Positions 39,161 to 50,287 of a stretch of DNA of 64,000 nt are shown here, one piece after another (the first letter of the stretch is position 1; the number at the start of each line of letters is the position of its first letter). Made by a program: the position numbers and the translations under genes. The stretch covers positions 930,001 to 994,000 of the forward strand of contig NC_009659.1 in the NCBI RefSeq assembly GCF_000013625.1, read 5' to 3'. Origin of the DNA: Janthinobacterium sp. Marseille (GTDB lineage: Bacteria > Pseudomonadota > Gammaproteobacteria > Burkholderiales > Burkholderiaceae_D). The notes under the pieces were generated by a model. It had not been told where the DNA came from and did no database searches. It was given only the letters and a program-made list of their open reading frames with translations.

Positions 39161-40735
39161 TCAAAGTTTATTGTGGGCACCTGGTGGCAGTTCGATATGC
39201 GGTACCGTGCGCGCCAGCATCTCGCGCAGTTTTTTGTCTATGCGCGCATATTCAAGTTCGATTTCGGTGAGGCGCAAGGTCGCGTCACCGAGGATATTGT
39301 TCTTCGCACGGATTTCCAGTTCGCGGCACAAGGCGGCCAGCGTCGTCGCACCTATCGATGAGGTACTGCCACACAGCACATGGGCGAACTTGGCGACCGT
39401 CAATGCATCATTGGCGAGAATCGCTTCGTGCAGGAAGACGAAACGCTTCGGGCTATCAGTCAGGAACAAATCCACCAGTTCGGCAAAGTCGGCACCAAAC
39501 ATCGCCTGCGTGGCTTCCAGGTCATCATCATTACGTACCATCGAACGCTCCGTGGAGGCCGGCTTCAGCCAGCGGCTCAGCATGTCGCTCAGCGGGCGCA
39601 TGCGTATCGGTTTAAAAATAAAATCATCCATGCCGATTGCCAGGCAGGTATCGCGCTCGCTGCGGTTGACGCCTGATGACCAGCCGATGATAGGCACGTG
39701 CTCATCGCCGGTTTCCGCGGCGCGTAGCAGGGCGGTGGTTTGGTAGCCATCCATATTCGGCATCTGGCAATCCATCAGGATCAGGTCGTAATGCCGCACA
39801 TGCACCATGCGTAAAGCCTGTTGCCCGTCGGATGCGGTATCGACCTGGCAGCCGAAGCGGGCCAGCATGCGTTCCGCGATTTGCAGGTTGACCGGGTTGT
39901 CGTCGACCGCCAGCACGCGGGCGTGGGTGAAGGCATGTGCATTGTCGGACACCACATGCTCGGCATTTAAATGCACGCCGGCACAGACGAAGCGCGGTGC
40001 ATCCTTCTTTGCGATGCAAGTGCAGAGCATTGCCAGCGTATCCAGCAACATGGCTTGCTGCAGTGGTTTTGGCAGCCAGGCGGAGAAGCCGGCTTGTGCC
40101 AGGCGGTCTGCGTCGTGACGTGTATGTTCATTGCTGATCAATACGACCAGGGTGTCGCGGTACAAGGGTGAGCTGCCGATGGCGGTGCCCAGTGTTTCGC
40201 CATCGATGCCGGGAATGTTTTGATCGAACAGGGCGATACGGTAGGGATCGCCGGCAATCGCCGCGCTTTCGAGTGCCGCCAGCGCCACTTTCGGCACCTC
40301 GAAACCTTCGATGCGCGCGCCGCGCTGCTGCAATTCGCGCACCACATGGCTGCGGCTTTCTTCATTGGCGTCTATCAACAGCATGCGTATGCCGCTAAGC
40401 GAGCCCATGGCGCTGTCGGCGGCCACCTGGCCGATACCAAGGTCGGTATTCGATTCCAGTAATTGTTCGATATTCAGCAGTAGATTGTCGGCGCTGCTTT
40501 GTGCCAGATGGATCATTTCGCGCTGATCAGGAGCGAGGTCGTTTTGCCGGATCATTTCCAGCGCCCCGACGATGCCGTTCATCTGGCTGTTGACCACGCG
40601 TTGCAGGTCGTCGAGCAAACGCTCGTCCAGCTGTGTATTAGTCAGGCTGCTGTTCTGGTGTTCGCGGCGCCGCGCTATCCGCAGGCGTTGCGCCTTACTT
40701 AGTTTTTTTATTGTAAAGGGCAGATATGAAGACAT
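39161..40735 (-). CDS. Degenerate-kinase REC-REC-Hpt phosphorelay protein
   Basis: A 524-residue protein. Residues about 35-100 look like a HisKA dimerisation helix pair, but the catalytic His is replaced: where active kinases have [11 protein letters not shown] it has LQRVVNSQMNG, with Arg46 in the His position. No HATPase domain follows. REC1 (about 115-230, Asp171 in ALFDQN), REC2 (about 270-385, VDDN motif and Asp322 in LMDCQMP) and a C-terminal Hpt domain (HVLCGSTSSIGA, His452) remain. It therefore cannot autophosphorylate by itself but could relay phosphate between REC and Hpt. The first REC lacks part of the acidic pocket (LLIDANEE). Partners are not obvious; the two kinases at 45-52 kb are candidates. 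Confidence 0.85.
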   Translation of the reverse strand: MSSYLPFTIKKLSKAQRLRIARRREHQNSSLTNTQLDERLLDDLQRVVNSQMNGIVGALEMIRQNDLAPDQREMIHLAQSSADNLLLNIEQLLESNTDLGIGQVAADSAMGSLSGIRMLLIDANEESRSHVVRELQQRGARIEGFEVPKVALAALESAAIAGDPYRIALFDQNIPGIDGETLGTAIGSSPLYRDTLVVLISNEHTRHDADRLAQAGFSAWLPKPLQQAMLLDTLAMLCTCIAKKDAPRFVCAGVHLNAEHVVSDNAHAFTHARVLAVDDNPVNLQIAERMLARFGCQVDTASDGQQALRMVHVRHYDLILMDCQMPNMDGYQTTALLRAAETGDEHVPIIGWSSGVNRSERDTCLAIGMDDFIFKPIRMRPLSDMLSRWLKPASTERSMVRNDDDLEATQAMFGADFAELVDLFLTDSPKRFVFLHEAILANDALTVAKFAHVLCGSTSSIGATTLAALCRELEIRAKNNILGDATLRLTEIELEYARIDKKLREMLARTVPHIELPPGAHNKL

Positions 40736-40880
40736 GGTTTCCCGACGGGTTGTCCTGCATCGTGAGCGAAATCAGCAATGGCTTGATGCACTGCAAGAAT
40801 ATATCAAAGCACGGCGTCAAGCATAAACCCTTTATGAATTGCTAAAAGCACATTTTTTCATGTAGTCTTGCGAAAGTTAT

Positions 40881-41063
40881 TTTCCGTGCGGAAATGCTAT
40901 TGAAGGAAAAGATAGCAATTGCCTGTGCCGGATCGGGGCCGGTATGCCACACAGCGTACCGAGCATAGGGCCAAAGTAGCCCGCTGCCGACGGATGCACA
41001 GACATGTTTGGTAAAGCGAGCGCATTTGGTATGCGGCGGCGTACCTGTGCGCTTTTTTATTTG
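40881..41063 (+). ncRNA. Structured leader or small RNA upstream of the peroxidase cluster
   Basis: Most of the 353-base gap 40736-41088 has no gene; this part is rich in self-complementary segments. In order: TTTCCG/CGGAAA (40881-40894); TGCTAT/ATAGCA (40895-40917); a hairpin GGTATGC (40941-40947) / GCGTACC (40954-40960); and a second hairpin with identical arms, GGTATGC (41028-41034) / GCGTACC (41039-41045), extended by AGCGCA (41019-41024) / TGCGCT (41048-41053) and a T-run to 41058. Either arm of one hairpin can pair with the other. The terminator lies 30 bases before the first gene of the cluster, and no plus-strand gene lies upstream for over 2 kb. It is thus either an attenuating leader or an independent small RNA. 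It matches no riboswitch class that I recognise. Confidence 0.6.
41019..41058 (+). terminator. Intrinsic terminator in the leader of the peroxidase cluster
   Basis: A 13-base-pair interrupted stem with loop GGCG (41035-41038) is followed by six T. It lies 30 bases upstream of the ATG at 41089. Confidence 0.85.
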
Positions 41064-41088
41064 AGCTGCTGCAACAAGGGGAAAATGC

Positions 41089-41709
41089 ATGTCCAATATT
41101 GCTGGAAAAGCATATGCCATGAATGTGATCACGCCGATCCGTTGGTATATGACTTGGATTAACAAGATAATTTTCTGGGTGGCACTAAGGAAGCCGGCCA
41201 CCCTCAAGGGTTTGATTACCCTGTCACTGATTCACTATGCACGCTGGGTCATCATCGGCAAGAACCAGTTTCCGCACCTGGATGAACGGCAGCCGAAGGA
41301 AAAGCTGAATTACGCGTATATGCTGTTTTTCAGTAATTTCAACGGCAGCTGGGCGCAATACGTCGATTCCTTCACGTTTGCGATTCCAAGCGGGCTGGAC
41401 CTGTTCTGGAAATGGAATATCCGTTATCCCAAGTCAGTCCCGCTGACACCCTTCCATTCCTATATCCAATTCAACCAGGTCCAGACTGATCACTATTACA
41501 ACGCCTATCCGATGGCGGCTGCGAACGATGTGAAGGCGGCGAAAACATTGAAAGCCGAATTGATCGCTTTCGATGCGAAGTTCGGCAATGCCGAACCGGA
41601 GCAATTCCTCAAACAGTACAAGACCCTGTTGCGCAGCCTGCAGCATGACCTCGGCGATATGCAACCGACGCCGATTGTCAGCCTGGCCGACCAGGCGAAA
41701 GGGGAATAA
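41089..41709 (+). CDS. Unknown protein 1 of the Dyp-peroxidase cluster
   Basis: A 206-residue protein with a good ribosome-binding site (AAGGGGA). No family is recognised. The N-terminus has the pattern N-I-x3-AYA-x5-PI (residues 3-17), which recurs with identical spacing in the next gene. A central FSNFNGSWAQYVDSF block also has a counterpart there. Two moderately hydrophobic stretches occur (WINKIIFWVAL, TLSLIHYARWVIIG), perhaps for membrane association. The C-terminal 50 residues are charged and helical. Its position as first gene, two bases before the second unknown gene and followed by the peroxidase, suggests a role with that enzyme. Confidence 0.75.
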   Translation: MSNIAGKAYAMNVITPIRWYMTWINKIIFWVALRKPATLKGLITLSLIHYARWVIIGKNQFPHLDERQPKEKLNYAYMLFFSNFNGSWAQYVDSFTFAIPSGLDLFWKWNIRYPKSVPLTPFHSYIQFNQVQTDHYYNAYPMAAANDVKAAKTLKAELIAFDAKFGNAEPEQFLKQYKTLLRSLQHDLGDMQPTPIVSLADQAKGE

Positions 41710-41711
41710 GC

Positions 41712-42407
41712 ATGGGGAATGTCAGCAATAATGCCTATGCCATCACCTGTTTGTGTCCGATCCAGAAAGGCCATATCGGCGGTACTGCATATAGCGATGA
41801 AGTGCGCCGGCGCTTGCAGGACTGGGGCCTGAATGAAATGAGCCCGATGGCGAAGGTGCCGCAAACTTATTTGTGCCGTTACTTCGTGCTCGACGATGTC
41901 TACTACGAATCGCTGCCCGGTACTGACTTCGGCGGCACCTGGTACGACTTCCTGTCCATCTTCTCTGATCGTTTCCGCCGGGCCGCCTTGCCGGAAGAAG
42001 ACCACCTGCAATCGAAATACCTGGTCTGGTGCTGCAATATCCACGGCGACCCCGATACCTACCTGCGCGAGATGTGGCAAGCCATCAGTGATGACATCCG
42101 TCACCTGTGGGGTTTTTGCTATGGCTTCGAACATGTATCGGATGCCGACAGCTTCGTTGCCTATATCAAGAAATGCCAATTGAAAGCCGCCTTGTTCTTC
42201 GTCGGGTCCAACGACGAACCGCTACCGGAACAATTGAAGGGACTCTACCTGAAGCAGGAGTTCTCGCGTTTCGTGACTGCACATCAGGGCTTGCCGGCCG
42301 TCGAGCTGCAACAGGCATATCAGGAATTTATCCAGCGGGTTGACCCGGGCAATTTACAGGAGCCGACATGGCTTCCCGGTCAATCCACTGTCAATAAACA
42401 ATCGTAG
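41712..42407 (+). CDS. Unknown protein 2 of the Dyp-peroxidase cluster
   Basis: A 231-residue protein, two bases behind unknown protein 1 and 12 bases before the peroxidase gene. It shares with its neighbour the N-V-x3-AYA-x5-PI N-terminus and a TDFGGTWYDFLSIF block aligning with SNFNGSWAQYVDSF. Overall it lacks clear membrane segments and has several Cys (CLCPI, WCCNI). Alternating beta and helix with a repeated motif would suit a ferredoxin-like alpha/beta fold as in Dyp peroxidases, but this is inference. It could be an accessory subunit or a distant peroxidase-fold relative without the haem residues. Confidence 0.75.
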   Translation: MGNVSNNAYAITCLCPIQKGHIGGTAYSDEVRRRLQDWGLNEMSPMAKVPQTYLCRYFVLDDVYYESLPGTDFGGTWYDFLSIFSDRFRRAALPEEDHLQSKYLVWCCNIHGDPDTYLREMWQAISDDIRHLWGFCYGFEHVSDADSFVAYIKKCQLKAALFFVGSNDEPLPEQLKGLYLKQEFSRFVTAHQGLPAVELQQAYQEFIQRVDPGNLQEPTWLPGQSTVNKQS

Positions 42408-42419
42408 AAGGATCTTCTT

Positions 42420-43949
42420 GTGAGCAAAGTTCTGGACTTGATGGATATCCAAGGCAACGTGATCCGTGCCTATGGTCGTTACAATTTTCCCTATGCACGC
42501 TATGTGTTTTTGAATATCCGCGATGGTGCACGCGGACGCGAGTTCGTGCGCAAGGTGACCGAACAGGTCACGACAGCGGTGAATTGGGGGCAGGGGCCGA
42601 ATCCGATTGAAAAACCGATGTCGACCGTGAATGTCGCCTTCACCTATCCCGGCCTGAAGACGCTGGAGTTGCCGCGTGCATCGCTGATCGGCTTCCCGAT
42701 GGAATTCGTGATGGGGATGAAGAAGCGTGTCGATATCCTCGGCGATGACAAACGCAGCGCCCCCGACTACTGGGATCCGATCTGGAAAGAAAGCCGCGAA
42801 CATGACCGTCATAAGGACGTGCATGTGTGGATTTCGATCAATGGTCAAACGCGTGAGGCCATGCAGCAAAGCTATGAGTGGCTGCAAAAGATAGTGCATG
42901 ACAGCGCCGGCGGTGTCGCCATCCTGTCCGGCCATCGCGGTGACGACGGTGCCGAACACCTGCCGTTCCAGGATGTGCATGCGGTATTCGAAAACGGTAA
43001 GGCGACCAGCAAGGAGCACTTTGGCTATACCGACGGTATCGGCGATCCGGTCTTCGAAGGTTTGCCGGGCAAGCCGGAGCGTGTGGTCGGACGCGGCAAG
43101 CAACTCAAGGGTGGCAAATGGGCGCCGCTGGCAACCGGTGAATTTATCCTCGGACATAGGGATGAGGCGGAAGAGTATCCGATCGCGCCGGCACCGCAGT
43201 TATTGTCGCGCAACGGTACCTTCATGGTGTATCGCAAGTTGCATGAAAACGTCGGTACCTTCAATGCCTACCTGGAACAGGAGGGTGCGAAGTACCCGGG
43301 CGGCAAGGAATTGCTGGCAGCGAAGTTCGTCGGCCGCTGGCGTGACAATGGCGCACCTATCGTGTCGGCACCGGATGTCGCGAGCAAGGCGCAATGGGAT
43401 GCCAAGTTCGCAGCCGCCACGCCGGCTGAACGTGATCGCATGTTGAGCGGCTTTACTTTCGATGACGATATGGATGGTGCCAAATGTCCGTTCAGCTCGC
43501 ATATGCGCCGCATCAATCCGCGTGCTTCGCTGGAACTGACGCCGAATGCCTTCGATACCCCGGGTGCACTGGCAAATCGCCGTCGCGTAATACGACGCGG
43601 CTTGCCATATGGTGAAGTGAAGGATCCGGCGCGTGATGACGGTAATCACGGCATCGTCATCATGATGCTGAACTCCAGCATCAATCGCCAGTTCGAGTTC
43701 GTGCAGCAGCAGTGGATCAATTATGGCAATGATTTCCGTGCTGCCAATGACAAGGAAATCATCCTCGGCAACCACGATGACGAGCATCCGAGCAAGGCGG
43801 TATTGCAGGTCGAAAAGGATAGTGATGAAGCACCATACTTCCTGTCGAAGATTCCACGCCTGGTCGAAACGCGTGGCGGTGATTACTTCTTCATTCCGAG
43901 CATGACGGCATTGCGCATGATTGCGAAGGGTATCGTCGATCCGACCTGA
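42420..43949 (+). CDS. Dyp-type haem peroxidase
   Basis: A 509-residue enzyme starting with GTG at 42420 behind an AAGGA site. The distal GxxDG motif is HFGYTDGIGDP (Asp205). The proximal haem ligand is probably His361 in SSHMRRINPRAS, and the RRGLPYG segment near 393 carries the distal Arg. No signal peptide is present, so it is cytoplasmic or cargo-loaded. The sequence is longer than the roughly 300-residue class A/B enzymes and fits the longer class C/D type. These enzymes oxidise dyes, phenolics and lignin-like compounds with hydrogen peroxide. It is cotranscribed with two unknown genes and converges with a catalase-like gene. Confidence 0.9.
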   Translation: MSKVLDLMDIQGNVIRAYGRYNFPYARYVFLNIRDGARGREFVRKVTEQVTTAVNWGQGPNPIEKPMSTVNVAFTYPGLKTLELPRASLIGFPMEFVMGMKKRVDILGDDKRSAPDYWDPIWKESREHDRHKDVHVWISINGQTREAMQQSYEWLQKIVHDSAGGVAILSGHRGDDGAEHLPFQDVHAVFENGKATSKEHFGYTDGIGDPVFEGLPGKPERVVGRGKQLKGGKWAPLATGEFILGHRDEAEEYPIAPAPQLLSRNGTFMVYRKLHENVGTFNAYLEQEGAKYPGGKELLAAKFVGRWRDNGAPIVSAPDVASKAQWDAKFAAATPAERDRMLSGFTFDDDMDGAKCPFSSHMRRINPRASLELTPNAFDTPGALANRRRVIRRGLPYGEVKDPARDDGNHGIVIMMLNSSINRQFEFVQQQWINYGNDFRAANDKEIILGNHDDEHPSKAVLQVEKDSDEAPYFLSKIPRLVETRGGDYFFIPSMTALRMIAKGIVDPT

Positions 43950-43966
43950 TACAGGTCCCGGCAAGC

Positions 43967-43998
43967 AAAAGGGAAGCCAAAGCGGCTTCCCTTTTTTA
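43967..43998. terminator. Terminator between the Dyp and catalase-like genes
   Basis: AAAAGGGAAGCC pairs with GGCTTCCCTTTT, with T-rich tails on the plus strand and A-rich on the other side. It serves the converging transcripts. Confidence 0.92.
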
Positions 43999-44024: not shown

Positions 44025-45035
44025 TCAGATTTCCCAGCTGCCCGGTTCTTTGCGTGTCACCTTATTGTATTCGTGACGGAAGGTGGAGATCGCGTCGTAG
44101 ACGATTTTTCGGGCGCGGTTGATGCCGCCCAGCGGACGGTGTGCCGGCAGGCTGTGCCATGGCGTAAACGACAGGTTTTCGCCAAATACACGTTGTGCTT
44201 CGCTGTCGAATTCCTGTTGCAGGATGCGTATCGTCGCCACTTTGCGGAATGGCGATTCGCTTTCCTTCCATTCCTTGCCCGGATCTTCGATCGGCATATT
44301 CTCGGCGTTTGTTTGCAGCTGTACCGTGAAGTCGAACCTGGCTTCGCCCTGGCCCAATTGCCGCACCATGGCCTGGCGCAGGTAATCCGGCCCCGGATTC
44401 GGTGGCATCGCATCCGGGTGCGGGACATGCGGGATTGCCGAGTATTTGACGGCGGTGTCGCCGAATAAATAAGGTGTGGTGCTCCAGTAGCGCATTTGCA
44501 ATGGATTGGCGAACTTCTTCAGCGAAGTCACGAGGTTCCAGATCACGCGCCAATGGGTCGCGAAGAAGCCGATCTTGGCCCATATGCTGCCGGTCATGGC
44601 TTTGATCAGTGCATCGAATTCCTCGACGTTCCTGGTCACGAAGACATTGGTGCTGATGACGATGAAGTCCTGGGTTTGTTCGTGGCGCTCGCTGTCCAGC
44701 AATTTATCGCCGGGTACGCCCATCAGCTTGATCGCCATGCCGCGGATGTCGCGCGCCTTGTCTGCCTGTATCGTGCCATCCTGGTTGGAGAAACGGATCC
44801 AGGCCTGGTAGCTGCGTGGCTCGGCGAAAATACCGACGCGCAGTTCGGGTGCCAGATTGCTTTCAACTGTAAATTCCGCCTTGACCACGCCATGCATTTT
44901 TGGGTGCGCATCGCGGCGCATAATGCCGGTCGGGTTGTCGCGGATGATCTTGGCTTTGAGGCGGGCGGCGAGGTCTTCGGTGTATTGCTGTTCCCCAACC
45001 GGAATGCATTCTTGCGCGAGTGTGTTGTCTGACAT
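44025..45035 (-). CDS. Catalase-like haem protein (y4iL-type)
   Basis: A 336-residue protein of the catalase-fold superfamily without the full catalase length (about 480-750). His48 in KMHGVVKAEF is the distal His, Asn130 in STNVF the distal Asn, and the proximal tyrosine is in RKIVY (Arg309-x3-Tyr313). SNQDGTIQADKARDIRGMAIKL is a family block. Relatives of this type are annotated as catalase-like or as associated with lipid peroxide metabolism, and their activity is mostly untested. It is transcribed towards the Dyp gene and starts 121 bases from the kinase-cluster promoter region. Together with the Dyp peroxidase it suggests a peroxide or lipid-hydroperoxide function. Confidence 0.85.
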   Translation of the reverse strand: MSDNTLAQECIPVGEQQYTEDLAARLKAKIIRDNPTGIMRRDAHPKMHGVVKAEFTVESNLAPELRVGIFAEPRSYQAWIRFSNQDGTIQADKARDIRGMAIKLMGVPGDKLLDSERHEQTQDFIVISTNVFVTRNVEEFDALIKAMTGSIWAKIGFFATHWRVIWNLVTSLKKFANPLQMRYWSTTPYLFGDTAVKYSAIPHVPHPDAMPPNPGPDYLRQAMVRQLGQGEARFDFTVQLQTNAENMPIEDPGKEWKESESPFRKVATIRILQQEFDSEAQRVFGENLSFTPWHSLPAHRPLGGINRARKIVYDAISTFRHEYNKVTRKEPGSWEI

Positions 45036-45271: not shown

Positions 45272-48200
45272 TTGCACCGCACGATGTTTTTCCGTGCGTC
45301 CGCGATTTCGGATGAGGCGGAAGAGCCGGTTGATATTCCTGTTTACGACCTGAATGCCGCCCTGCATTTATTCGTTGCCCTGATCGAGGGTTTGAGCGAA
45401 GTGCATAAACGCGTCGACCTGCATCAGGCAGTGTGCATGGCCAACCTGCGCCTGCTGCATGACGGTTCGGTTGAATTCCGTAATGATGCGACAGTACCGC
45501 TGGCCTATAGCTCGCCGGAACAAACCGGTCGCATGAACCGCCAGGTCGATTACCGCAGCGATTACTATTCACTCGGCATCGTGTTGTATGAACTCCTGAG
45601 CGGGCATTTGCCTTTCGAGTCGGATAGCGTGATGGAGCTGGTATACAGCCATATTGCGAAGAAGCCGCTGCCACCGAGCCGCTTCAATCCGGCGATTCCG
45701 GAAACGGTAGGCAATATCGTCCTTAAGCTGCTGGCCAAGAATGCCGAGGATAGATACCAGAGCCTGGAAGGCTTGCTCAGCGATATAGAGCAATGCCGGG
45801 CCGCCTTGCAGGAAAGCGGCATCATTCCGCCTTTCCCATTGGCGCAACATGACGTCTGTGACCGCCTGCAAATTTCACAAAAATTGTATGGCCGCGAGTG
45901 CGAATATGCGCGCTTGCTGAATGCATTCAAGAATGTAACGGCGGGTACCACCGAACTGCTGCTGGTGACCGGTTACTCGGGCGTCGGTAAATCCTCGCTG
46001 GTGAATGAAATCCATAAGCCGGTGGTCGCGCAGGGTGGTTACTTCATCTCCGGTAAATTCGACCAGTTCAAGCGCACTATCCCGTACTCCGCGTTTAACC
46101 AGGCTTTCCGCGAATTGATGCGGCAAATCCTGACTGAAAGCGAAAGCCGGATTGCCGAATGGCGCGTCAAATTATTGAAAGCGCTGGGCCCGAACGGGCA
46201 ATTGATCATCGATGCGATTCCGGAACTGGAATTCATCATCGGCAAGCAGCCACAGGTGCCCTTGCCGAGTGCCACGCGCAATAGCTTCAACTACGTGATG
46301 CAAAACTTCGTCAGTGTGTTTACACGTGTCGAACATCCTATCGTCCTGTTCCTCGATGACTTGCAATGGGCCGATGCCGCGTCGCTGAAACTCATCAGCC
46401 TGCTGATGCGGAATCTGAACGATCCCTGCCTGCTCCTGATCGGGGCTTACCGCAGCAATGAAGTCGATATTGCACATCCGCTGAACCTGACGCTGGACCT
46501 GATCCGCAAGGACGCCAACGTCACGACCATAGAGCTGAACCCCTTATCAGACCTGAGTATCCTCGAGATGGTGGCGGATACGCTGCAATGCGAAGAAGCG
46601 GAAGCGATTTCACTGGCCAGCCTGATTTATCGCAAGACGCTGGGTAATCCTTTCTTCATCGGCCAGTTCATCAAGAGCCTCAACAGCGATGGTTTCCTGT
46701 TCTTTGAAAACGGTCGCTGGCGCTGGAATATCGCGCAGATCGAAGAACTCAACATCACCGATAACGTGGTCGACCTGTTGACCAAGGAATTACGGCGCCT
46801 GCCGGAATCCACGCAACGCCTGTTGACGATTGCAGCTTGCATCGGCAGCCGTTTTGATTTGCAAACGCTGGAAACCGTCAGCCAGCGCAGCAAGCAGGAA
46901 ATCGGCGAACTCTTGCACGATGCGATCCAGACCGGCCTGGTGTTGCCGGCCGAGCATACGGTGGCAGCCACCGCCTTGGTGTCTTACGTTTACCAGTTCC
47001 GGCACGATAAGGTGCAACAAGCGGCCTATGAAGGTATCGCCAAGTACGAAGCCGATGCGATCCATCTGGAAATCGGCCGCCTGCTGCTAAATAGTCTGAC
47101 AGAAGAAGAGAAAGAAGAATCCATTTTTGAGCTGGTCGATCACCTGAACCAGGGCCGCTCCTTGCTGACGCAGCACAGCGAAAAAGAAACGCTGGCGGAA
47201 TTGAATCTGCAGGCGGCGAAGAAGGCGCGCAAATCGGCGGCTTTTGACGTGCACCGTGATTGCATCAATATTGCCAGCGAATTCGGCAGCGTACATATCT
47301 GGCGTGAAAAACAGGTTTTCATGCATGAGCTGTACATGGAAAAAATCAATGCCGCCTTCGCCCGCGCCGACTACAAGGAAATGGAAAAACTGTGCCAGAT
47401 CGTCTGTGAGCACAGTGAAACACCAGGCGAAATCATCGCCGCCAAGAATTACCTGATACGTTGCTACGGCGCGATCTACAAGCCGCAAGAGCTGATGAAG
47501 ACCGGCATCGAAATGCTGGAAATTGCCGGCATCAGGATACCGGCCAACCTGAATGAAAAACATATCCTGCTGGCACGCCTGAAGCTGAAAGTGGCGATGC
47601 GCGGACGTGACCCGCTGGAGCTGGAACACCTGCCGCCGGCAACTGATCCGGGCTACCTGCTGCAATTGCATGCGACCATGGCCTTCCTCGGCTACGGCTT
47701 CACCTACCTGGCAGGTTCGAATGCCGTGCTGTGGGTCGCGCTGGAAATGGTTAGGCGCTCGATCCATTACGGCTCATCGCCGCATTGCGCGTACGCCTAT
47801 GCAGTCTGGGGCCGCACGCTGGTGGGCAAGCTGGGCAAGATCGTCGACGGCTATAAATTCGGCAAGGTCGCGGCGCAACTGGGTGGTGACAAGATATCGC
47901 TGGGTGCGGCCGGGATTTTCCACGGCATCATCCGGCACCATCGCGAACACCTGCGCCTGTCGCTGGAACCACTGATGGATATTTACGTCAAGGCGATGGA
48001 AACCGGCGACCGGCCGGGCGCGATGGTGGCGCTGTCCTTCTCCGACGCGATCCGTTTCCAGTCCGGCGGCAATGTGCAGGAAGCGCTTCAGACGATACGC
48101 AAGGATCTCGATATCTATCGCAAGATGGATTATGCCGCTTTGCTCGGCGTCATGATTCCATGGGCCTTGCTGTTCTCGCGCCTGGTCGGTGAATCCATCA

Positions 48201-50287
48201 CCGACATCACGCAAGGCCGCGACCAAGAGGATTATGTGCAGTCGCGCAAGAATGCTGCCGATCCCTGGGGCATTTTCTATGTGCGCACGATACAGGCTAT
48301 CGGTGAGTACTACTTCGGCGAATTCGTCAAAGCACGCATGCATGCGGCGGAAGCGATGGAATTGCCGGGCTTTCATTTTGGTACGCCGTCATCCGGTTTC
48401 CTGATGTGGGTACATTCGCTGTCGGAATTGGCGTTGTGCCGTCCTTACGATGCACACGCATCGAGCGCGCTGGCACGGGTCAGGGTTTGGCAGCATCAGT
48501 TCAAGGCATGGGCCGATCATGCACCTATGAATTACCGGCATAAATGGCAATTGGTCGAAGCTGAGCGGTATCGTGTGAGCGACCGGAACAGGCAAGCCGA
48601 GCAAGCTTATGAACAGGCAATTTCCGGTGCACGCAAATACGGCTTCATCAATGATGAAGCGCTGGCACATGAATTGACCGGTAAGTATTATCTGGGGCAG
48701 GGCAAGGACATCAATGCACGCATGCACCTGGAACAGGCACATGCTCGCTATGAAGAATGGGGTGCATTCGCCAAGGCGAGGCAGATGGAAGAAGCGTACC
48801 CGATTTTGCTGGCACGGGTGATTACGCGCCGTCGTCAGAATAGCCGGGACCTCGAAGATGCGCGCGAACGGCAGGTCGATATACAAACGGTGATCAAGGC
48901 ATCGCAGACGCTATCGGGTGAAATCCAGCTCGATAAATTGCTTTCCAAGCTGATGCGCCTATTGATTGAAAATGCCGGTGCACAAAAGGGTGCGTTGCTC
49001 TTGATGGAGCACGGCCGCCTGTTTATCCAGGCCGAAGTCAGTGCGGACGGCACCATCGTCGTCGAGCAGGAATTACCGCTGGAAAAAAGCACGACGCTGG
49101 GCCTGGCCGTCATCAATTATGTGAAGCGTACACACGGCAACGTGGTGCTGGGTGATGCCGGGAATGACAGCCAATTCAACGGCGATCCCTATATAGAACG
49201 CGAGCGACCGAAATCGATACTGTGCCTGCCTTTGCAAAAGCAGGGGCAATTGATCGGCGTGCTGTATATGGAAAATAATCTGGCGGTCGATGCCTTTACG
49301 CCGGAACATACGGAACTGCTCCAAATCCTGTCGACGCAGATCGCGATTTCACTGGAAAACGCCGGCCTGTATAACGACCTCGAACAAAAAATCGAAGCGC
49401 GTACGCAAGCCCTGATTCAAAAGAATACCGAATTGCATGACACGCTGAACTCCCTGCGCCGCACGCAAAAGCAATTGGTCGAATCGGCCAAACTGGCTTC
49501 TCTGGGCCAATTGGTGGCCGGGGTTGCACATGAAATCAATACGCCGCTGGGCGTCGGCGTCACCGGCGCTTCAACGCTGGCGGAAGAAACGGCACGATTG
49601 AAATCATTATTCCAGAGCGGTGCGATGAAGCGCTCCGACCTGGATGCCTATGTCGGTACTGCAGGGACTATCAGCAAATTGCTGCTGTCGAATATGGAGC
49701 GCGCCGCGACGCTGATACAAAGCTTTAAGGATGTAGCGGTCGACCAGACCAGCGAAGAGCGGCGTACCTTCCGCCTCAAGGCTTATATCGATGAAATCCT
49801 GTCCAACCTGAGTCCGATGTTGCGTCGCTCCGAGCACAGGGTGGCGGTCGATTGCGATGAGGCGATAGAGGTCGATACCTATCCCGGTGCCTTGTCGCAA
49901 GTCATTACCAATCTGGTCATGAATTCCTTGCTGCATGCATTCACTGACCATGTGCCGGGTGAGATCCTGATCGTCGTGCGCAGTGTGTACGAACAGGGAC
50001 AGGAAACCGATATGATCGAGCTCAGCCTGTCCGATAACGGTCAAGGTATCCCGCAGGAAAACCTGGCCAAGATCTTTGATCCTTTCTTCACGACTACACG
50101 CGGTCGTGGCGGCAGCGGCCTGGGCCTGAACATCGTGCACAATCTGGTCACTAGCAGTTTGCAGGGCCAGATTGCGGTGGAAAGCCAATTGGGTGTGGGT
50201 ACCACTTTCATCCTGCGTTTCCCGCGCAGCCCGGTCGAAGCGGTAGCGAACCAGGAAAACGATAGTGGCGGACCAGGCCATGTTTAG
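45272..50287 (+). CDS. Multidomain sensor: degenerate Ser/Thr kinase, AAA ATPase, GAF, histidine kinase
   Basis: A 1671-residue signalling protein. Residues about 25-170 are the C-lobe of a Ser/Thr kinase ([37 protein letters not shown]), but the glycine loop, ATP lysine, HRD and DFG motifs are missing or altered, so it is a pseudokinase or truncated. Residues about 207-500 form an AAA-type ATPase with Walker [10 protein letters not shown] (about 232) and Walker [11 protein letters not shown] (about 358). A long helical region leads to a GAF domain (about 1210-1365) and an active histidine kinase (AHEINTPL, His near 1417; HATPase N, G1 and G2 boxes to 1655). The TTG at 45272 has no ribosome-binding site; the ATG at 45284 is an alternative. 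An upstream frame (45157-45312) may be its true N-terminus (see findings). The hybrid kinase follows in 8 bases. Confidence 0.85.

Follow-up and report, generated by a model that had tools for sequence, protein, structure and literature searches.

A predicted structured RNA leader, found in four close species, upstream of a probable DyP-type peroxidase operon

A structured leader of ∼180 nt is present at about 40875–41058 of the window, the 64,000-nt stretch of the Janthinobacterium sp. Marseille genome analyzed here. Judged from the sequence, it lies between a probable promoter and a DyP-peroxidase operon. The fold of the leader, its terminator, and its position before the operon are all conserved. 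A DNA comparison covering 60 genomes found the leader in four of the 13 genomes of the genus, including its own; the remaining 47 gave no match. The four RNA-bearing genomes are the source genome itself (G000; 4,110,251 bases in one contig), Herminiimonas arsenitoxidans AS8 (G001), and two further species (G004 and G011). The initial annotation had proposed a structured RNA that belongs either to the leader of a peroxidase cluster or to a stand-alone small RNA; both the predicted fold and its conservation in four species support a structured leader. We tentatively regard it as probable that the leader is a cis-acting, lineage-specific transcription attenuator, in which termination is the default and read-through into the DyP-peroxidase operon is regulated.

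Three plus-strand genes follow the leader. Gene 1 (41089..41709) encodes an unnamed conserved protein of 206 amino acids and gene 2 (41712..42407) an unnamed protein of 231 amino acids; neither product matches a Pfam or NCBIfam family. A search of the protein collection gave 2581 relatives of gene 1 (E ≤ 0.001), and the AlphaFold model of its product is unusable (mean pLDDT 43). The product of gene 3 (42420..43949, 509 amino acids) is a DyP-type peroxidase that matches PF21105 (E 7.7e-11) and the PDB entry 8re3, “Peroxidase, putative” (E 1.3e-46), as well as other DyP entries; its score of 86.1 bits against TIGR01413 falls under the cut-off of 100.5. The spacing of genes 1–3 suggests that they form an operon. 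A four-gene peroxidase region had originally been described. Only three of the genes are co-directional (41089–43949), whereas the fourth, a catalase-like gene on the minus strand (44025–45035), is convergent to gene 3. A strong, terminator-like hairpin with a T-run (GGGAAGCC...GGCTTCCCTTTTTT) follows gene 3 at about 43970 (interval about 43960–43995) and separates the peroxidase gene from the convergent catalase-like gene.

On its upstream side, the leader adjoins a divergent minus-strand gene (39161–40735) for a multi-domain response regulator/Hpt protein. A plus-strand frame at 40572–40826 runs mostly across this gene. The assertion that no evident plus-strand gene upstream would need the terminator is therefore correct, since the upstream neighbor is divergent. 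Beyond the catalase-like gene, the plus strand carries a very large regulator (45272–50287) that combines a Ser/Thr kinase remnant, an AAA ATPase, a GAF domain, and a histidine kinase. Its kinase domain covers only profile positions 155–254 of 263. As a stop closes the frame upstream at about 45160, this domain apparently lacks its N-terminal half. The response regulator/Hpt protein and this sensor kinase possibly constitute one phosphorelay that flanks the peroxidase operon.

The leader begins with a 5′ segment (40876..40918, plus strand, as are all parts described here) that is predicted to form hairpin H1 followed by hairpin H2, the latter with a purine-rich loop. H2 is fully paired in two of the four species; G011 has a mismatch and G004 a deletion. 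The predicted folds of the four species then share a three-way-junction domain (40921..41003) composed of helix P1 (40921–40928/40996–41003), an internal loop, helix P2 (40933–40936/40987–40990), and the inner hairpins P3 (40940–40947/40954–40961) and P4 (40968–40971/40979–40982). P3 is a variable arm and corresponds to the first of two hairpins in the initial annotation (40941..40960). The two halves of the internal loop, CGGA (40929..40932) and CGGAU (40991..40995), are invariant in all four species, as is the loop of P4. Fold z-scores are −2.36 (G000), −2.54 (G001), −3.15 (G004), and −3.46 (G011), and only −1.31 for the longer interval that had been suggested for folding (40860–41090).

Base-pair changes among the four species are consistent with the junction domain, particularly in P3. 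In a model-based alignment, 96.9% of cells are paired and six pairs are changed on both sides, all six in one species (G001) and in an alignment fitted to the structure. Neither value was reached in any of 500 shuffles, the number of pair types was reached in 162 of 500, and structures slid along the alignment gave up to four double-changed pairs. Compensatory changes occur in P1 and P3, and in this alignment five of the eight P3 pairs of G001 are changed on both sides. A plain alignment of the remaining helices yields only two such double-changed pairs, a number that 60 of 500 shuffles reach. Double changes are few outside P3 because those helices hardly vary.

A comparison with G001 reveals which parts of the leader are held most firmly. 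Fourfold-degenerate sites are identical at 43 of 75 positions in gene 1 and 49 of 86 in gene 2. The internal loop (9/9), P2 (8/8), and P4 with its loop (15/15) are fully identical, and the 5′ segment agrees at 40 of 44 positions where fourfold sites are 57% identical. Identity is lower in the linker (10/13), the terminator (27/37), P1 (12/18), and the P3 region (10/31). Conservation far above that of synonymous sites indicates strong selection on the loops, P4, and the 5′ segment. By the same comparison, P3 is kept by structure only.

The feature that originally drew attention to this leader was a pair of hairpins 87 bases apart with the same arms, GGTATGC and GCGTACC. Both are present as described, at 40941–40960 with a 6-nt loop and at 41028–41045 with a 4-nt loop. 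A census of the whole window for hairpins of seven pairs (G-T allowed, loop of 3–8) lists 513, among which this is the sole pair less than 200 nt apart that has both arms in common. No pair sharing both arms arose in 40 first-order resamplings of the window, in which pairs with a common 5′ arm alone occurred at a mean of 0.15; the duplication is therefore real and unusual for random sequence. The interchangeable arms had been taken to indicate a possible switch, in which the 5′ arm of P3 would pair with the 3′ arm of the terminator hairpin. The exact duplication in G000 favors this mechanism, as does the reverse cross-pair between the terminator 5′ arm and the P3 3′ arm, which is kept in the three closest species (8 of 8 pairs in G000, G011, and G004).

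The comparison with relatives does not sustain the proposed switch. Among 71 loci, the exact arrangement GGTATGC-loop-GCGTACC occurs twice in G000 only and once in G011, so conservation of both repeated arms, which the initial annotation had named as a test, was not found. Pairing of the P3 5′ arm with the terminator 3′ arm falls from 7 of 8 in G000 and G011 to 5 in G004 and 1 in G001, and the reverse cross-pair is likewise lost in G001 (1 of 8). Each hairpin nevertheless maintains its own pairing at 7–8 of 8 in all four species. In G001, P3 has been rewritten with paired changes, still pairs 8 of 8, and has nothing in common with the terminator, whose stem is of different sequence. Because cross-pairing is lost in G001, arm exchange is not a mechanism common to the four species, and we consider it highly improbable as the function of the leader. 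As a general caution, two hairpins of a single genome may share their arms by coincidence, which becomes apparent once relatives are compared.

The proposal that the second hairpin is a terminator is well founded. This hairpin forms part of a predicted intrinsic terminator (41018..41058, plus strand) in which the stem is lengthened by GAGCGCA/TGCGCTT and runs into six T residues (41053–41058). A G+C-rich stem followed by a T-run is found in all four species, and the best terminator hairpins have energies of −23.2, −23.6, −23.6, and −21.5 kcal/mol in G000, G011, G004, and G001. In the same order, the hairpin ends 34, 31, 31, and 31 nt from the ATG of gene 1, just before the ribosome-binding site. 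Among 26 upstream regions that lack the RNA, that of G003 (L010) has a weaker terminator candidate at the equivalent place (−10.3 kcal/mol, 30 nt) and that of G006 (L013) a weak candidate at 57 nt. The small number of further candidates listed are at least 71 nt away.

Transcription of the leader would begin from an inferred sigma-70-type promoter at 40839..40868 (plus strand; TTGCTA, 18 nt, TAGTCT), whose –10 hexamer is weak. The corresponding pattern, TTGnnn-16/19-TARTCT, was drawn after inspection from the same sequences in which it was then counted, and occurs in 10 of 30 gene 1 upstream regions (expected 0.385; maximum 3 in 200 resamplings), the carriers being seven genus members and three of one other genus and so not independent. 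The four RNA-bearing species have it 215–220 nt upstream of the start codon, three sister species 207–313 nt, and the three members of the other genus 36–93 nt. A promoter downstream of 41058, which the initial annotation would have taken as evidence against its proposal, was not seen between 41058 and 41089. The consensus scan, a weak guide here because it also misses the inferred promoter, lists one site, inside gene 1 (41142–41171). Since the promoter pattern also precedes gene 1 in relatives without the RNA, and the scan lists nothing promoter-like in the stretch from the terminator to gene 1, the operon probably has to be read through the terminator. In the simplest history suggested by these sequences, the promoter is the older element, and the RNA was acquired later between it and the operon. 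Three regions from genus members without the RNA (L011, L012, and L014) have in common a palindrome, GTAAACACCAT...ATGGTATTGC, ∼110 nt before the gene 1 start, which from its sequence is a possible protein-binding site for the peroxidase operon.

Gene 1 is far more widespread than the leader. It is present in 49 of 343 family genomes (E ≤ 0.001), in 42 of them at E ≤ 1e-50, and the upstream regions were read for 30 of these 42. Within the genus, gene 1 was not found in one of the 13 genomes (G009), and eight genomes hold gene 1 and lack the leader. Each RNA-bearing genome has one credible copy of the RNA, always before gene 1, and genes 1 and 2 follow it directly in all four; the position of gene 3 was looked at in the source genome only. 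The leaders of four sister-clade genomes exhibit no significant fold (z of +0.82, +0.87, −0.38, and −1.54 for G002, G003, G006, and G010) and do not match the covariance model with filters off.

Wider searches gave a similar picture. A covariance model of the core recovered only the four species from 343 family genomes, with a next best E of 0.003 per genome, under stricter filters that are able to lose weak matches. When G001 was included in the model, 399 genomes of the order and 398 of the phylum yielded no credible match beyond the source genome; the order, phylum, and family sets overlap. The best remaining match in the order and phylum sets (32.5 bits, E 2.9e-4 in one genome) is inside a 446-codon frame. 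A scan of the GTDB-220 genome set for a pattern that requires exact CGGATCGG, AAGTAG, and CCGNCGGATG returned two Herminiimonas, together with four stretches that fall within long frames, and neither AS8 nor the source genome; records of the source or a very near genome may be left out of this set. Altogether, 31 loci beyond the four species were obtained, 27 by covariance (16 from the family set, and seven and four from the order and phylum sets) and four by pattern outside Herminiimonas; matches without a locus (8 of 28 listed for the family set and 4 of 12 listed for the order set) are left out of this count. Each of the 31 falls inside a frame that is open from stop to stop over 101–1023 codons, and all are taken as chance matches. 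Phage records gave no match to the leader, plasmids gave one 30-base match only (E 0.6), and viral contigs contained neither a gene 1 relative nor the pattern. Among the genomes searched, the leader is thus a lineage-specific element confined to four close species.

If the leader is a cis-acting attenuator, RNA polymerase would start near 40875 and first make the 5′ segment and the three-way-junction domain, P1–P4. It would then meet the strong intrinsic terminator, 31–34 nt upstream of the first codon of the operon. The default product would be a terminated RNA of ∼180 nt, and a fraction of transcripts would extend past the terminator into the operon. Together, the P4 loop and the invariant internal loop are the likely parts of a putative binding site for a small molecule, protein, or RNA that would alter read-through. 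As candidate antiterminator, CGGAUGC (40991–40997), which comprises the invariant core and the start of the P1 3′ strand, may pair with GCAUUYG (41022–41028) of the terminator 5′ arm; this pairing can form in all four species.

In folding predictions at equilibrium, the terminator prevails over such an antiterminator in each of the four species, with probabilities of 0.954–0.984 for the lower stem and 0.999 for the upper, and the two conserved alternative pairings cost 9.6–20.0 and 7.3–14.8 kcal/mol. In nascent RNA that ends before the terminator 3′ arm, CGGAUGC/GCAUUYG exceeds the optimum by 1.4, 2.2, 8.1, and 2.4 kcal/mol in G000, G011, G004, and G001, with predicted probabilities of 0.063, 0.011, 0.0, and 0.027, respectively. 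In the nascent RNA of G000, the probability of P1 itself is only 0.029. These nascent-state energies make a kinetic switch no more than possible, and we therefore prefer a cis attenuator with default termination.

In every one of the four genomes that carry it, out of 13 in the genus, the RNA directly precedes genes 1 and 2, which argues for an attenuator acting in cis. Against it stand the moderate conservation of P1 and the terminator relative to G001 (12/18 and 27/37), the eight genus members that hold gene 1 without the RNA, the origin of all six double-changed pairs in G001, and the cost of either antiterminator at equilibrium (7.3–20.0 kcal/mol); in nascent RNA, the better of the two has a predicted probability of at most 0.063. 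The main rival, for which we reserve a minor but real share of belief, is that the leader is an independent small RNA of ∼180 nt that acts in trans, is transcribed from a promoter and ended by a terminator of its own, and is located before the operon by chance. A strong terminator that acts by default, the degree to which the 5′ segment and loop bases are conserved, and the absence of the RNA from most relatives with gene 1 would all fit such an RNA. However, its promoter pattern also precedes gene 1 where the RNA is missing, its terminator hairpin is 31–34 nt from a start codon with no promoter-like site between them, and its only credible copy in each genome is always before gene 1. It is also conceivable, albeit doubtful, that P1–P4 represents a narrow new riboswitch class for a redox- or heme-related signal, which would sequester CGGAUGC from the terminator 5′ arm, switch the operon, and have been inserted or grown recently between an older promoter and the operon. 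If so, the origin of a riboswitch would be traceable inside one genus.

Simpler functions for the leader were also weighed. A fixed attenuator or insulator, in which the terminator reduces expression of the operon in an unvarying proportion and the domain before it serves just to stabilize the RNA, has the appeal of a simple architecture and agrees with the lack of a favorable alternative structure common to the four species. Yet the unpaired core is among the best conserved parts of the leader (internal loop 9/9, P4 with loop 15/15), beyond the need of a stabilizer, and we consider this explanation unlikely. Ribosome-mediated attenuation through a translated leader peptide might be considered, because a 24-codon frame starts at a conserved ATG (40896) in the source genome. 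This frame, the one to which the comparison applied, measures 24, 26, 27, and 18 codons in the four species and suffers a one-base deletion in G004, which makes a peptide very hard to credit. An antisense gene across the leader is conceivable, but nothing favors it: from stop to stop, the first listed antisense frames span 129, 117, 110, and 33 codons in G000, G011, G004, and G001, with another G001 frame of 146, phases left unmatched through indels, and one G011 value that is an artefact of a cut segment.

If read-through is regulated, the cis attenuator would be a structured leader outside every Rfam family that precedes a peroxidase operon, the first two proteins of which are themselves without Pfam or NCBIfam matches. 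Since sister species without the RNA retain gene 1 and a similar promoter pattern, the birth of a new RNA regulator could be addressed directly.

The leader does not correspond to a described RNA in the sources consulted. The statement that no known riboswitch could be matched agrees with a search of Rfam 15 (4227 families), in which the window has no match at the gathering threshold. At E ≤ 10, the interval 40730–41100 has two sub-threshold matches only: HTH-XRE (18.9 of 49.8 bits at 40770–40889), whose overlap with the leader is limited to the initial bases, and S15 (15.6 of 39.5 bits at 40756–40808), which lies outside the leader. No description of the leader was found in the accessible portions of the literature on Herminiimonas small RNAs and riboswitches, Janthinobacterium sp. 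Marseille, and Minibacterium massiliensis, nor in those on DyP riboswitches and clusters and surveys of structured noncoding RNAs, the coverage of which excludes a survey of 224 motifs. The main text of PMC11109978 and PMC8632094 has none of the sought terms.

Compared with known systems, the leader resembles leader-peptide attenuators in placing a terminator between promoter and first gene, and differs from them in having no conserved reading frame. RsmY, RsmZ, and CsrB are bacterial small RNAs that end in terminators, and were compared because of GGA motifs. Like RNAs of this type, the leader is ∼180 nt long, has a promoter-like site and a terminator, and keeps four GGA motifs in four species. 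Unlike them, it has no Rfam match, belongs to the operon's own leader, and occurs in a genome in which a Pfam PF02599 search found no CsrA; the same search was positive in three of 14 control genomes, including Escherichia coli. Because CsrA is not found, a Csr/Rsm sponge is rejected by this test as an explanation for the GGA motifs. Riboswitch-type transcription attenuators differ from the leader in that it matches no Rfam family, is held by only four close species, and has no favorable antiterminator. In other respects the leader resembles them: by sequence, the 5′ leader of the operon contains a conserved structured domain, with a junction built around an invariant unpaired core, a variable P3 arm, and a terminator just before the first gene. 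The leader is best read as a new RNA family of a known kind.
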